From the IMG/VR virus record IMGVR_UViG_3300031841_002239, positions 1-55,791 of that record: a DNA stretch of 55,791 bases. One strand, written 5' to 3'. Both the position numbers and the translations under genes were made by a program. The stretch comes from a virus. The notes below the pieces were generated by a model. The model saw nothing but the letters and a program-made list of their open reading frames with translations. It had not been told where the DNA came from and did no database searches. Positions within the stretch are counted from its first letter, which is position 1. Every line of letters begins with the position of its first letter. Positions 18,054-46,977 of the stretch are shown piece by piece.

Positions 18054-18076
18054 ATTATTTCCTATGTTACAGCACT

Positions 18077-18104
18077 ATTATACTAAGAAACTGTATTTTG
18101 TCAA
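18077..18104 (-). promoter_or_regulatory. Sigma70-type promoter, TTGACA-N16-TATAAT
   Basis: -10 complement at 18077-18082 and -35 complement at 18099-18104, driving the HAD gene. It lies back-to-back with the late box of the divergent plus-strand gene at 18127. Confidence 0.84.
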
Positions 18105-18114
18105 GTGTTTTTTG

Positions 18115-18121
18115 TTAAATA
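18115..18121 (+). promoter_or_regulatory. Late-type box TTAAATA, 5 bases before ATG
   Basis: TTAAATA followed by GTATT and ATG 18127. The same GTATTATG context recurs after GATAAATA at 54898. Confidence 0.5.
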
Positions 18122-18126
18122 GTATT

Positions 18127-18699
18127 ATGGCATACAAAAAGAAAATACTATTTCCAGACTATTTATTTGAGGGACAACTAGAGGTACCTAGTGATTTAAA
18201 TAAAAACATTCAGGAAAGTTTAAAAAAGAATAAAGAATCTGGTATTACTACAGAAACTGTTTATGGCTGGTTTACAAACAAGCAGTTTCCTTGTGAAGGT
18301 ATTATACCACAACTTGCAAACTTATTAGCAAAAAACTTTGTAGGCAATGTAGTTAATAATTTTGACTTGGGAGTTGCAAGAGATATTAATTTGCTTAACC
18401 CTTGGCTCATATCTACTAACCCTAACCATTCTTTCCCTACAACTTTAGAGCCACAAAGATGGTACAATGCAGGTGTATATTTACAAACAACTAATAAAGG
18501 TAGTCATTTAAAATTAGATAACTATACATCTAAAGTTTATGCAGGACAAAATACACAGGAAAATAGTGTTTATATAAAACCTAAACAGTATAAAGTAATA
18601 TACTGGCCTAGTCATATACCCTGGAGTTTAACTCCTAATATGAGTATGGTAGAAACAACAATGCTTATTTGTACTTTTAGAGCTGATGCTAAAAAATAG
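18127..18699 (+). CDS. Hypothetical protein, 190 aa
   Basis: ATG 18127 is chosen because it sits 5 bases after a late box; the longer frame would cover that promoter. The C-terminal half (RWYNAGVYLQTTNKGSHLKLDN ... KPKQYKVIYWPSHIPWSLTPN) has the strand order of a small double-stranded beta-helix as in phage 2OG-oxygenase-like proteins. The catalytic HxD is not present, so I do not call it an enzyme. It is the only plus-strand gene in this part, so it was probably inserted. Confidence 0.6.
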   Translation: MAYKKKILFPDYLFEGQLEVPSDLNKNIQESLKKNKESGITTETVYGWFTNKQFPCEGIIPQLANLLAKNFVGNVVNNFDLGVARDINLLNPWLISTNPNHSFPTTLEPQRWYNAGVYLQTTNKGSHLKLDNYTSKVYAGQNTQENSVYIKPKQYKVIYWPSHIPWSLTPNMSMVETTMLICTFRADAKK

Positions 18700-18700
18700 T

Positions 18701-18718
18701 GTGGCCCCGAAGGGCCAC
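18701..18718 (-). terminator. Hairpin terminator GTGGCCC-CGAA/TTCG-GGGCCAC
   Basis: A perfect 7-bp GC stem with a four-base loop. On the minus strand it is followed by ACTATTTTTT, so it terminates the riboswitch-peptide transcript. Confidence 0.8.
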
Positions 18719-18725
18719 GTATGCC

Positions 18726-18890
18726 TTAAGGATAGAAAGGATTATCTGTTATATAATCAGGTAACTCAGATTTTCTTTTAGAGTTAGTGACCATACGAGG
18801 AAAGAATTTTTCCTGCAAATCAGATTTTCTTTTTTCTCTTCTAAGGGCTAATTTGACTGCACGTTTAATTTGTGCGTTTTGATTAGTCAT
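18726..18890 (-). CDS. Riboswitch-controlled basic peptide, 54 aa
   Basis: A short gene with a strong AAGGAG ribosome site 5-6 bases before ATG 18890. The product is basic (MTNQNAQIKRAVKLALRREK at the start) and ends DNPFYP. It has no membrane helix. It lies directly downstream of two glutamine-type aptamers and upstream of a terminator, so it is the only gene in its transcription unit. This matches the layout of the Downstream-peptide/glnA RNA class, whose typical downstream gene is a short ORF. Function of the peptide unknown. Binding to a nitrogen-metabolism protein is a guess by analogy. Confidence 0.8.
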   Translation of the reverse strand: MTNQNAQIKRAVKLALRREKRKSDLQEKFFPRMVTNSKRKSELPDYITDNPFYP

Positions 18891-18911
18891 GTCATCTCCT
18901 TTTACAAAGAT

Positions 18912-18975
18912 GCGTTCCTTCGGTCTAATTACCTACTTCCGTCGTCGCTCTACATTTAGAGTGGCGATGAACGAG
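18912..18975 (-). promoter_or_regulatory. Glutamine riboswitch aptamer 2 (glnA/Downstream-peptide class)
   Basis: On the minus strand this copy has CGTTCA, a 10-bp variable hairpin with loop AAATGT, then CGGAAGTAGG, a GGT/ACC mini-stem and CGAAGGAACG. CGTTC pairs with GAACG to close the element. These are the conserved blocks of the glutamine-binding RNA. The downstream CATCT/AGATG pair flanks the ribosome site, a possible expression platform. Confidence 0.88.
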
Positions 18976-18981
18976 TTCAGT

Positions 18982-19042
18982 ACGTTCCTTCGTCCCAATT
19001 GACTACTTCCGTTCACTGCTACATTTAGAGTGAATGAACGAG
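18982..19042 (-). promoter_or_regulatory. Glutamine riboswitch aptamer 1 (upstream tandem copy)
   Basis: A second copy 70 bases upstream shares the CGTTCA, AAATGT loop, CGGAAGTAG and CGAAGGAACG blocks. Its stems are changed in a compensating way: the mini-stem is GTC/GAC instead of GGT/ACC, and the long hairpin uses TTCACT/AGTGAA. Covariation with fixed loops shows that RNA structure is selected. Confidence 0.88.
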
Positions 19043-19058
19043 TGTAACTTGCGTTACA
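19043..19058. other. Small perfect hairpin TGTAAC-TTGC-GTTACA
   Basis: A 6-bp perfect stem with four-base loop lies between the late box and the first aptamer, at or near the 5' end of the riboswitch RNA. It may protect the transcript end. Confidence 0.5.
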
Positions 19059-19063
19059 TTAAA

Positions 19064-19071
19064 TATTTATC
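19064..19071 (-). promoter_or_regulatory. Late promoter box GATAAATA for riboswitch-peptide unit
   Basis: GATAAATA on the minus strand, just upstream of the hairpin and the two aptamers, with the tail-fibre terminator immediately before it. Confidence 0.68.
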
Positions 19072-19082
19072 TTTACTCAAAA

Positions 19083-19108
19083 AAAGGGCGGTTAAAAAAC
19101 CGCCCTTT
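19083..19108 (-). terminator. Strong terminator after tail-fibre gene
   Basis: AAAGGGCGGTT pairs with AACCGCCCTTT around a four-base loop. A long T-run follows on the minus strand. It could also work on the plus strand. Confidence 0.9.
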
Positions 19109-19135: not shown

Positions 19136-22100
19136 TTATACCCAGTTGTAGTGAACTGAGGCCACTGCCGCACCACTTGTTGGTGCAACTGCGTTATCAC
19201 TTGCATCAAAGAATGCTAACGTTACCGCCGCATTTTTTGTTAAAGTAATGTCGCCATCTAGTTCTATAATATAGTTACCTACTGTAGCCGCATCTGCGTC
19301 TGCTTTAGCAACAAGTGTACTACCTGAACCACCGTTCTCTTTAATAGTAATGTAATTAACACTATTACCTGCAAAGGCTGTACTTACTTTTAATACTATT
19401 TTCTCAGCATAATAAGTTCTGCTGGAAACGTTAGGTACCGTACCAATAGAAGCCGTTGTGGCTCCACTTGTTACAGCCGCTCTTAATAAAAGTCCGTCAC
19501 CGCCGTTGTTAGCAACATAGTCAACAACTGCCGCTGAAGTTGGAAGAGTAGTATCGTTATCGTTATTACTAATTCCATCTGCTTCATCAACAAATTTTGT
19601 TACAGTAATGCTTTCGCCACTGTCTGTTAATGAACCAAAACTTACAGCACCACTAATAGTAGCACTTGTACCGATGAGTCCAGCCGCTTCAAAATCAGTT
19701 GCCGCTAGTGTTAAATCACCAGCAGTTGATCCGTCTGCAGTTGTAGTCGCCGCTACAAATCTATCTGTACTTTGATCCCATCCTAAGAAACCGTTGTTTC
19801 CATCGGAGCCTCTTTCATAAATGTGACCAATGTCATTAGGGTTAGCACCAGTTAATCCACTTTGTAGTGTAATTAAGGTGTCAGTTATTGTTGTGTTAGT
19901 TGAATTAACACTAGTTTGTGTACCACTTACAGTTAAGTTACCACCAACTGTTACATCACCTGATGTAGCAATAGTTGTAACACCTGAAATAGCACCACTG
20001 TTAATACTTGCTACGCCATCAGTTAATGTACCTGCTGATACTTGTCCTGAGAAAGTACCTGCTGTCATATTAGTTAGTGTTGCATCAAGGTTTACAGTTA
20101 ATGTATTATCAGCACCTGCTGTAGTAATATTAGTACCACCTGCGATGTCTAAAGTTTCGCTGTCTAAGTCTATGCTTAATGCTCCACCTGAGTCACCTTG
20201 GAAGTCTAAATCAGCCGCTGTTGCAACTGAATCTACGTATGCTTTAACTGATTGTTGTGTAGGAACAAGAGTAGCACTATCACTAGCCATGTTATCTTCA
20301 TCAACAAATCCAGCAATAGTAATACTACCATCACTTAATGATCCATACTGTACAGTACCACTTGCTGTAACATTTACAGCACCTGTTACGTTACCTGCTG
20401 TTACAGTTAATGCACCATCTGTTAAAGTTGTTGCACTAACACTTGTTAATCCAGATACTGAACTTGCTAGTCCAACAGTAATAGTATTGTTACTAACTGT
20501 TGTTGTAGTTTCGTTTGATGTACCTGCAAAGTTAATTGTGTCAGTTCCTACTCTTACAACGTCATCTGAACCACTGTCAGCACCGATTGTTAAATCTGAG
20601 CTAATAGCCGCTGTTCCGGCCGCTGTTAAACGTCCTTGATCGTCAACTGTAAAAGTTGGAATTGCTGTTGCACTACCATATGAACCTGCTGTAACGGCAG
20701 TATCGTCAAGAGTTACAGTTAAAGTATCAGTAGCCGTAGCCGCTGTTGTTATACCTGTTCCACCTGCGATGTCAACTGTGTCTCCACCGTCAACTGTTTG
20801 CGTACCACTGTCACCTGTTAATGTCCAAGATGTTGAAATACTTGCAGTTGAAGCCGCTGTAATTCTACCTTGTGCATCTACAGTAATAACTGGAATAGCA
20901 GTTGAACTACCATAGTTACCAGCCGATACTGCTGTATTGTCTAGGCTCACAGTTAAAGTTTGTCCTGAACCGACTGTTGAAAGTCCTGTTCCACCAGCAA
21001 TGTCTAGCACTTGTGAATCAAGGTCTACACTCAATGCACCACCTGAATCTCCTTGGAAATCTAGGTCTTGTGCGGTAATTTGTGTATCAACGTATGCTTT
21101 AACTGATTGCTGTGTAGGTACTTTAGTTGCAGAGTCTGAAGCCATATTGTCTTCATCTACAAATGTAATACCTGAGATTGTACCATCACTAAATGATGTA
21201 CCTTCTACAGCACCAAATTTTACAGCACCTGCTGAACCTGACATAACTGAACCTGAGTCAGTTGCATCTGGAATAAATGTAAATACACCAGTACTATCGT
21301 CGAATCCAAAGAATCCTAATTTAGCACCACTGCTGTTATATTTAAAGTTTATACCTCTATCTAAGTTATCATCACTTGCATCATCACCAACTGTAAAAAT
21401 TGGATCTGAAACTTCTACTGTTGTAGAGTTTGTTATAGTTCTTGTTCCAGTAACTGTTAAGTTACCATTAATTGTAACAGTATCTGCTGTTATGTCGTCT
21501 GATAAGAAACTACCTGTAACACTTAGGTTATTACCTACTGTTACATCGTTAGGTAAACCTATTTGAATTTGGTTATTACTAACTGTTGTTTCTATTTCGT
21601 TACTTGTTCCAACAAAGTTCAAAGTGTCAGTTCCAACTGTAACAGTATCATCAGAACCACTATCGGCTCCAATTGTTAATACACTTGAGGTAGCCGCAGT
21701 ACTTACTGCTGTGACTCTACCTTTTGCGTCAACTGTTATTACTGGAATTGCAGAACTTGATCCGTATGAACCGGCACTAACTCCACTGTCTGCTAAGGTT
21801 GTTGCGATAGTGGCAGTATTACCTGCACCTGTAAATGTCGCACTTCCTGTTGCATCACCTGACAAAGCAACTGTTACTGCTGAAGTAAATTCTGTTGCTT
21901 GACTGGCTGTACCAGTTAAGTTACCAACAAACCCTGTACTAGCAGTAATTGTGGTACCTGTAATAGCCGCCGCCGAGTTGGCTCCGATTATTGTACCATC
22001 AATAGCACCGCCATCAATGTTTACTGAGTTTGCCGCCTGAACGGATAAGTTTCCAAGTCCCAAGTTGGTTCTTGCATCACTGGCTCCAGTTGCACCTGTA

Positions 22101-22423
22101 CCACCATTTGCTACTGGTAAAGCACCAGTTACATCTGCAGTAAGATCAATTGATCCAGCGGACATAGTACCGCTTGAAACTTTTATAACACCAGAACTAC
22201 TACTGAAATTTTGTCCTGTACCACCGTACTGTGTTCCGATTGCCGTGCCATTCCAAGCACCCGCCGTAACTGTTCCTAATCTAATATCTTCTAGAGTAGT
22301 ACCGTTACTTTGCGTTAGGTCAAATCTTCCGTTACCAGCATCGTATATTAAACGACCCCCGGATTTTCCCATTTGCACATCGGCCGCAATACCTTTGATA
22401 CCAAAGTTTTTTATGTCAGCCAT
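19136..22423 (-). CDS. Large repetitive tail-fibre-like protein, 1095 aa
   Basis: A low-complexity, T/S/G/A/V-rich protein with recurring units such as GSYGSSSAIPVITVDAKGRV and LDIAGGTG. A longer block (FVDEDNMASDSAT...VPTQQSVKAYVD) occurs twice, near residues 425 and 710. Repeats like these are typical of marine phage tail fibres and structural adhesins. It has no signal peptide. It has its own late promoter and leader hairpin and ends at a strong terminator. It probably forms a trimeric fibre that touches the host. The long plus-strand frames over this gene are shadows of the repeats. Confidence 0.8.
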   Translation of the reverse strand: MADIKNFGIKGIAADVQMGKSGGRLIYDAGNGRFDLTQSNGTTLEDIRLGTVTAGAWNGTAIGTQYGGTGQNFSSSSGVIKVSSGTMSAGSIDLTADVTGALPVANGGTGATGASDARTNLGLGNLSVQAANSVNIDGGAIDGTIIGANSAAAITGTTITASTGFVGNLTGTASQATEFTSAVTVALSGDATGSATFTGAGNTATIATTLADSGVSAGSYGSSSAIPVITVDAKGRVTAVSTAATSSVLTIGADSGSDDTVTVGTDTLNFVGTSNEIETTVSNNQIQIGLPNDVTVGNNLSVTGSFLSDDITADTVTINGNLTVTGTRTITNSTTVEVSDPIFTVGDDASDDNLDRGINFKYNSSGAKLGFFGFDDSTGVFTFIPDATDSGSVMSGSAGAVKFGAVEGTSFSDGTISGITFVDEDNMASDSATKVPTQQSVKAYVDTQITAQDLDFQGDSGGALSVDLDSQVLDIAGGTGLSTVGSGQTLTVSLDNTAVSAGNYGSSTAIPVITVDAQGRITAASTASISTSWTLTGDSGTQTVDGGDTVDIAGGTGITTAATATDTLTVTLDDTAVTAGSYGSATAIPTFTVDDQGRLTAAGTAAISSDLTIGADSGSDDVVRVGTDTINFAGTSNETTTTVSNNTITVGLASSVSGLTSVSATTLTDGALTVTAGNVTGAVNVTASGTVQYGSLSDGSITIAGFVDEDNMASDSATLVPTQQSVKAYVDSVATAADLDFQGDSGGALSIDLDSETLDIAGGTNITTAGADNTLTVNLDATLTNMTAGTFSGQVSAGTLTDGVASINSGAISGVTTIATSGDVTVGGNLTVSGTQTSVNSTNTTITDTLITLQSGLTGANPNDIGHIYERGSDGNNGFLGWDQSTDRFVAATTTADGSTAGDLTLAATDFEAAGLIGTSATISGAVSFGSLTDSGESITVTKFVDEADGISNNDNDTTLPTSAAVVDYVANNGGDGLLLRAAVTSGATTASIGTVPNVSSRTYYAEKIVLKVSTAFAGNSVNYITIKENGGSGSTLVAKADADAATVGNYIIELDGDITLTKNAAVTLAFFDASDNAVAPTSGAAVASVHYNWV

Positions 22424-46206: not shown

Positions 46207-46977
46207 CTATTTGTCTTTGGGTACCAGTTTAGGTTTAAACTTTTTATTCTTAAAGTCTACTTCTAGTAATTCACCACTTGAAGTGTCTGCGCCACTTTCT
46301 TCAATAACGTCTTTTATTTCTTTTCCGTAAATGTCTGCGATCACTTGTCCTTCTATCTGTGCAAGTGGCTCTTCCATTCTTTTTAATATGTCTTGATTTA
46401 TATCTTTATTAAAGAACTCCTCTTTTTCTTCTTTGCTACTTGCTATATTATCAAATGTGCTGAAGTCTCTTCTACGCCACCAGGGAGTTTCCCAAAAGCT
46501 CAGTTCGCCTATCCATTCTGAAATAGTAGGCAACTGATCGTATTCGTCATCGTCTGCAAACATACTATATGCTATGCCATCAATTTTGTCTTTTATGCTG
46601 ATACTTTCTACAAAACTATTTTCGTGACAAATATAATTTAACTTACAATGTAGTGCCATAGCCAAACAGGCGTCACTTAAATCCGGCAGTATTAAAAAGT
46701 TGTTATCATGACTTGCAAATGCTCTTTCGACGACAGCCTTACTGTCCATATCATATACAATACTCTGATGTAATTGATCATATAAAAAGGAATTAATTGT
46801 ACTAAAACTAATATTTTGTTGTAGGAATGCCTGCTTACGAGTTTCTGTTTCCTCTACATTAGTCCTTAAACTGTATTCTATTTCATATGTACAAGACTTT
46901 ACTTGTCGTCTATCTTCGTTATCATAAACCCATACCATGTGTACTGGTATGTTTTTAGTTATTTGCATTATGTTCAT
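46207..46977 (-). CDS. Hypothetical protein, 256 aa
   Basis: An unknown protein with a Trp-rich middle (LSFWETPWWRRRDF) and an acidic C-terminus ending KPKLVPKDK. It lacks recognisable motifs. The start overlaps the upstream gene by 4 bases (ATGA), and its stop lies beside the -35 of the DnaE-like promoter. It closes the ClpP-SufE operon. Confidence 0.6.
   Translation of the reverse strand: MNIMQITKNIPVHMVWVYDNEDRRQVKSCTYEIEYSLRTNVEETETRKQAFLQQNISFSTINSFLYDQLHQSIVYDMDSKAVVERAFASHDNNFLILPDLSDACLAMALHCKLNYICHENSFVESISIKDKIDGIAYSMFADDDEYDQLPTISEWIGELSFWETPWWRRRDFSTFDNIASSKEEKEEFFNKDINQDILKRMEEPLAQIEGQVIADIYGKEIKDVIEESGADTSSGELLEVDFKNKKFKPKLVPKDK

Follow-up and report, generated by a model that had tools for sequence, protein, structure and literature searches.

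The window analysed here, a single IMG/VR record of 55,791 bases, comes from a marine T4-like phage and carries two type-I glutamine riboswitch aptamers in tandem ahead of one small basic peptide gene. Our overall reading, to which we give a probability of roughly two in three, is that this unit is a portable late cassette which would switch peptide synthesis on in response to glutamine, that it is shared with the host as a regulator of nitrogen sufficiency, and that SAR86, a marine bacterium that is abundant and has hardly been cultured, is the likely host group.

Two type-I glutamine aptamers form a separate late transcription unit

A cmscan search of the whole window at Rfam gathering thresholds returned exactly two RNA-family matches, both on the minus strand, both to RF01739 (cut-off 35 bits) and both spanning the full length of the model: 52.2 bits (E = 1.2e-8) for the copy next to the peptide gene (aptamer 2) and 50.0 bits (E = 4.9e-8) for the upstream copy (aptamer 1). 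An earlier, sequence-only reading had described two minus-strand elements of the glnA/Downstream-peptide class, 61–64 bases long and 70 bases apart. Their number, strand and glnA (type I) identity were borne out by the covariance models, whereas the Downstream-peptide (type II) identity had to be dropped, RF01704 giving no match in the window at the gathering threshold, and the dimensions were corrected to 67 nt (aptamer 2) and 64 nt (aptamer 1), with a start-to-start offset of 67 nt. The covariation between the stems that it had pointed out is present in P3, which reads GUC/GAC in the upstream copy and GGU/ACC in the downstream copy. Judged by its sequence, the riboswitch genuinely belongs to an established class and has a tandem arrangement already known there. 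At the linchpin position, aptamer 2 has both G23 and C60 and aptamer 1 has U60, so that the contribution of aptamer 1 may be weaker in the clade of the window phage.

The order of elements proposed from the letters alone, running from a late promoter through the tandem aptamers and one short basic ORF to a terminator, agrees with the coordinates found (19071–18701, minus strand; Table 1). Of the 12 window copies of [GT]ATAAATA, which looks like the late-promoter motif of this phage, 7 have the start of a same-strand ORF no more than 100 nt downstream, against an expectation of 7% (binomial p = 5e-6). The predicted terminator is a strong hairpin followed by a T run, and the tail-fibre-like gene upstream has a terminator of its own, which makes the cassette a separate transcription unit. 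The hairpin at the 5' end of the leader has altered yet still complementary arms in many related leaders, and may protect the 5' end. A 2OG-Fe(II) oxygenase-like gene (18064–18699, plus strand) is convergent with the cassette, its end adjoining the cassette terminator.

Table 1. Positions of the cassette elements and the neighbouring terminator in the window.
Feature	Position	Strand	Basis
T4-type late promoter GATAAATA	19064..19071	-	[TG]ATAAATA in relatives' leaders; enrichment in the window
5' leader hairpin TGTAAC-GCAA-GTTACA	19043..19058	-	recurs in many related leaders
Glutamine riboswitch aptamer 1, type I, U at linchpin position 60	18979..19042	-	RF01739
Glutamine riboswitch aptamer 2, type I, C60 intact at 18912	18909..18975	-	RF01739
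Shine-Dalgarno-sequestering hairpin CAUCUUU-GUAAAA-GGAGAUG	18893..18912	-	predicted fold and covariation
54-aa basic peptide ORF, family A (MTxYQ...RAVK...(L/W)PxYITDNPFYP)	18726..18890	-	relatives and dN/dS
Intrinsic terminator GTGGCCC-TTCG-GGGCCAC ACTATTTTTT	18701..18718	-	hairpin and T run, z -4.3
Terminator of upstream tail-fibre-like gene (19136-22423)	19083..19108	-	z -5.2

The DNA polymerase encoded in the window is of T4 type, with its best isolate matches below 48% identity and found in jumbo phages such as Sinorhizobium phage Phosso. Further genes include a clamp loader, PhoH, a head maturation protease, tail fibres, and QueE and GTP cyclohydrolase homologues.

A constrained peptide family travels with the tandem leader

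A first scan of viral contigs yielded 33 relatives of the 54-aa peptide, and further scans brought this family, here called family A, to about 40 distinct members of 45–56 aa, all basic (median pI 10.1). Residues T2, P44, Y46, N50, P51 and Y53 are invariant, and the C-terminus nearly always follows the pattern given in Table 1 or a close variant of it. Pairwise dN/dS ratios of 0.06–0.54 indicate a translated, constrained protein, which AlphaFold models as one long basic helix (residues 2–29) with an extended tail (pTM 0.38). Family A had no relatives in Pfam, NCBIfam, PHROGs or the PDB, and comparison with the known glutamine synthetase (GS) inactivating factors and DUF4278 gave no Pfam or NCBIfam match; a PDB search with an IF7 sequence gave no useful match. 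A tblastn search of 50,697 phage records with the peptide gave no match, and thus no isolate carrying family A was found. A YRGV-like DUF4278 motif was seen in family-A or other riboswitch peptides (L028:3986-4138, L209, L022 and L125); within family A it is confined to L028, L209 and L022/L035 and lies below HMM detection. From these sequences it looks as though peptide modules were recombined behind a common switch.

In marine viral contigs, nearly all family-A members stand behind the same tandem leader. Among the matches listed, 39 of 44 family-A elements have it, against 12 of 92 other viral elements; the linkers between paired aptamers in family-A leaders measure 6–9 nt, [TG]ATAAATA lies upstream of aptamer 1 in 40 of the 44 (near variants in the other 4), and directly 3' of P1 of aptamer 1 no more than 3 of the 39 doublets have TA instead of C. 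The cassette is found behind a tail-fibre gene, as in the window, behind gp23 and in several other places (gp23 and some neighbour names were read from the sequences, gp23 being confirmed by a match to Melnitz and HTVC008M), and with so many different genome positions it behaves as a movable unit. An identical cassette is present on a second contig (L004).

A hairpin formed by the 3' strand of P1 of aptamer 1 and the 5' strand of P1 of aptamer 2 is present in the minimum free energy (MFE) structure of the window and was considered as a coupling device. Its mean probability over 50 doublets is only 0.13–0.21, and we therefore do not claim it as such. Given this, and U60 in aptamer 1, a steeper glutamine response from the tandem arrangement would be no more than plausible.

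Phage glutamine riboswitches precede short basic peptides

At least 136 distinct aptamer leaders were collected from viral contigs, a sample in which the peptide searches have raised the share of family A. Among the matches listed, 133 of 136 leaders have an ORF preceded by a Shine-Dalgarno site no more than 60 nt away. For the 122 complete peptides that are distinct, a length of ≤65 aa and a pI >9 each hold in 98%, compared with 60% and 33%, respectively, in a control that looked for ORFs in the same manner from random positions of these contigs. The peptide families are A, YRG-repeat (DUF4278-related), GTSGY, W-x2-YC, MTxYQxWC and DPRLQ. One YRG-repeat peptide (L110) passes the Pfam cut-off for DUF4278, and the W-x2-YC and MTxYQxWC families are related to each other (96%); family A matches the Melnitz-type W-YC family weakly (probability 29%) and the other W-YC family not at all.

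Among isolates, Pelagibacter phage Mosig has an RF01739 element 17 nt before a 51-aa ORF, and S-PM2 (L230:1060-1180) has weak, degenerate tandem aptamers, below the Rfam cut-off, before S-PM2p192, a 56-aa YRG peptide. The glutamine riboswitch of phage Melnitz has been published as controlling tmRNA (PMC9004378). However, an unannotated 32-aa ORF, MTLYQQWCYLKAQKEYRRRQKILMYFRIRLKG, lies directly 3' of that riboswitch (L239:871-969; MZ577097, about 46470-46568, plus strand) with a C60-anchored Shine-Dalgarno hairpin visible in the sequence, while the tmRNA is upstream, which calls into question the tmRNA as the assigned target. Phage glutamine riboswitches thus appear, as far as these leaders indicate, generally to precede short basic peptides.

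The cassette and a broader glutamine regulon occur in SAR86

A first scan of bacterial genomes with the peptide profile gave no match. Scanning bacterial genomes with the aptamer pattern revealed a family-A cassette on a 73.8-kb contig of the SAR86 single cell AG-461-M22, next to ilvB, ilvC, pssA-like and quinone oxidoreductase genes, the last of these neighbours being kept in two more SAR86-order genomes. Over a stretch of about 60 nt, aptamer 1 of AG-461-M22 shows no difference from phage copies, for example that of L013. The family-A profile matched 6 of 199 SAR86-order genomes and 0 of 197 Pelagibacterales, a contrast set defined as the order of a Pelagibacteraceae genome.

RF01739 scores above cut-off in 79 of the 199 SAR86-order genomes (about 40%), where it precedes glutamine synthetases, gltB (glutamate synthase), Gcw_chp and TonB-receptor-like proteins, and other small peptides. 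The type-I switches before such genes are often tandem or triple (L381, L382, L360, L395, L407, L440 and others). A second SAR86 chromosomal peptide family, of 52–54 aa and ending in KKDVFFPYYL or KKDLFFPYYL, stands behind the same tandem leader (L361, L362, L363, L419, L427, L443 and L451). By sequence resemblance, type-I aptamers also precede an ammonium transporter in SAR116 and other alphaproteobacteria, and DUF4278-like and IF7-like small proteins in cyanobacteria.

The chromosomal cassette and the SAR86 glutamine regulon together point to SAR86 as the likely host group of the window phage, and suggest that phage and host share both a nitrogen-status switch and a small protein. Given how few SAR86 genomes have family A, transfer may have run from phage to host or from host to phage. 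With the cassette shared and with GS and glutamate synthase in the SAR86 regulon, a regulator of nitrogen sufficiency common to phage and host would be its likely context.

Our leading guess for the function of the peptide is the damping of host nitrogen or ammonium assimilation, favoured because the sensor, the polarity of the switch (see below) and the gene company in SAR86 all concern nitrogen. From the basic helix and the invariant C-terminal tail we tentatively infer that it probably binds a host protein and thereby lowers nitrogen assimilation or glutamine synthesis. A real, if minority, possibility is that the peptide acts as a general phage factor late in infection, such as one that binds nucleic acid or the ribosome, which glutamine merely times and which has no role in nitrogen metabolism: the riboswitch peptides are all strongly basic with a long predicted helix, and matched no nitrogen protein, but homologues with the same switch sit on SAR86 chromosomes, where the other riboswitch targets are nitrogen genes. 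It is doubtful, though worth stating, that the glutamine-switched small basic peptides in phages of several host groups all inhibit host GS or ammonium assimilation, with family A as a SAR86 nitrogen regulator shared with phages and the heterotroph counterpart of the cyanobacterial GS inactivating factors.

A C60-anchored hairpin suggests that glutamine switches translation on

Directly 3' of P1 of aptamer 2, the leader folds into a hairpin whose 5' arm starts at C60 and which covers the Shine-Dalgarno site (MFE -6.1 kcal/mol; pairing probability 0.96–0.99 in the full leader). Every family-A leader among the matches listed has a C60-anchored hairpin, and its arms vary together: CAUCU/AGAUG, CAAUC/GAUUG and CAUUUUC/GGAGAAUG in family A, and CACCU/GGGUG in other families. 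Among the matches listed, 9 of 19 distinct 5' arms in viral leaders have a complementary match among the 12 nt that precede the start codon; 1000 shuffles of this one-per-arm test gave a mean of 2.2 and a maximum of 6.

In the solved glutamine riboswitch, the ligand brings G23 into P1 to pair with C60 (PMC11477058), and for types 1 and 2 in cyanobacteria glutamine binding reportedly activates expression (PMC6316151). As C60 is needed both by the G23 pair and by the hairpin, the simplest reading is that glutamine would switch translation on. Without glutamine, the hairpin starting from C60 of aptamer 2 would cover the ribosome site, as predicted from fold and covariation; with glutamine bound, G23 would capture C60 and P1 would be stabilised, as is known for the class from the work of others. 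The capture of C60 would melt the base of the hairpin and turn peptide translation on, the second aptamer probably sharpening or shifting the response, and the peptide would be made late in infection in a glutamine-replete cell. SAR86 chromosomes agree with an ON switch for the peptides: there the C60-anchored hairpin precedes peptides and gltB, while a different platform, with CCGUUAAAC...GAGUUUAAC, is common to the GS leaders.

At the level of secondary structure the hairpin and P1 can coexist, and the switch hinges on the C60 conflict alone. With C60 the only shared residue, coaxial stacking on P1 could instead favour the hairpin in the bound state, turning glutamine into an OFF signal and confining the peptide to nitrogen-starved cells. 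We consider this unlikely, since the C60 paired in the hairpin is required for the G23 linchpin pair, the characterised switches of types 1 and 2 activate, and gltB, which has a C60-anchored hairpin in SAR86, encodes a glutamine consumer. A reading of the aptamers as passive relics, with constitutive synthesis of the peptide from the late promoter, is very improbable: aptamer 1 has U60, and isolates HTVC023P, HTVC103P and HTVC104P have a peptide of another riboswitch-linked family with no detectable aptamer, but both window aptamers keep the conserved blocks and score at least 15 bits above cut-off, and the C60-anchored hairpin covaries.

Comparison with known glutamine riboswitches

Tandem glutamine riboswitches and phage-borne glutamine riboswitches were already known. 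The peptide family, the cassette shared by host and phage, the wide extent of the regulon in SAR86 and the short-basic-peptide output of phage switches appear to be new, although some of these points may have been noticed earlier. A review described glutamine riboswitches as restricted to cyanobacteria (PMC6316151); the present data extend them to about 40% of the sampled SAR86-order genomes and to GS, GOGAT and ammonium transporter genes. They also place a metabolite sensor of nitrogen status inside phage late gene control, tie it to a peptide family common to phage and SAR86, and single out a class of unannotated phage proteins that is concrete and can be put to the test.

The window pair shares aptamer sequence and structure with the type-I class (glnA motif, RF01739), of which tandem copies (Weinberg 2010, PMC2864571) and 157 doublets (PMC9481103) have been described; it differs in its T4-like phage context, in the late promoter ahead of it and in a cistron that consists of a single peptide gene. 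In having two same-class aptamers in its leader, the cassette also recalls pseudo-cooperative tandem riboswitches. The type-II Downstream-peptide riboswitch (RF01704), which controls short ORFs of 17–100 aa (PMC2864571), resembles the cassette in output but not in aptamer. The Melnitz and Mosig switches are likewise phage-borne RF01739 elements followed by a short basic ORF, but have a single aptamer and peptides of families other than A. The gifB (IF17) riboswitch of Synechocystis differs in that family A has no IF17 or DUF4278 homology by profile search, and the host of the window phage, unlike that of gifB, is probably not a cyanobacterium; the two systems have in common a type-I aptamer, a small protein and a glutamine-ON response (PMC6316151), which we infer for the phage cassette.
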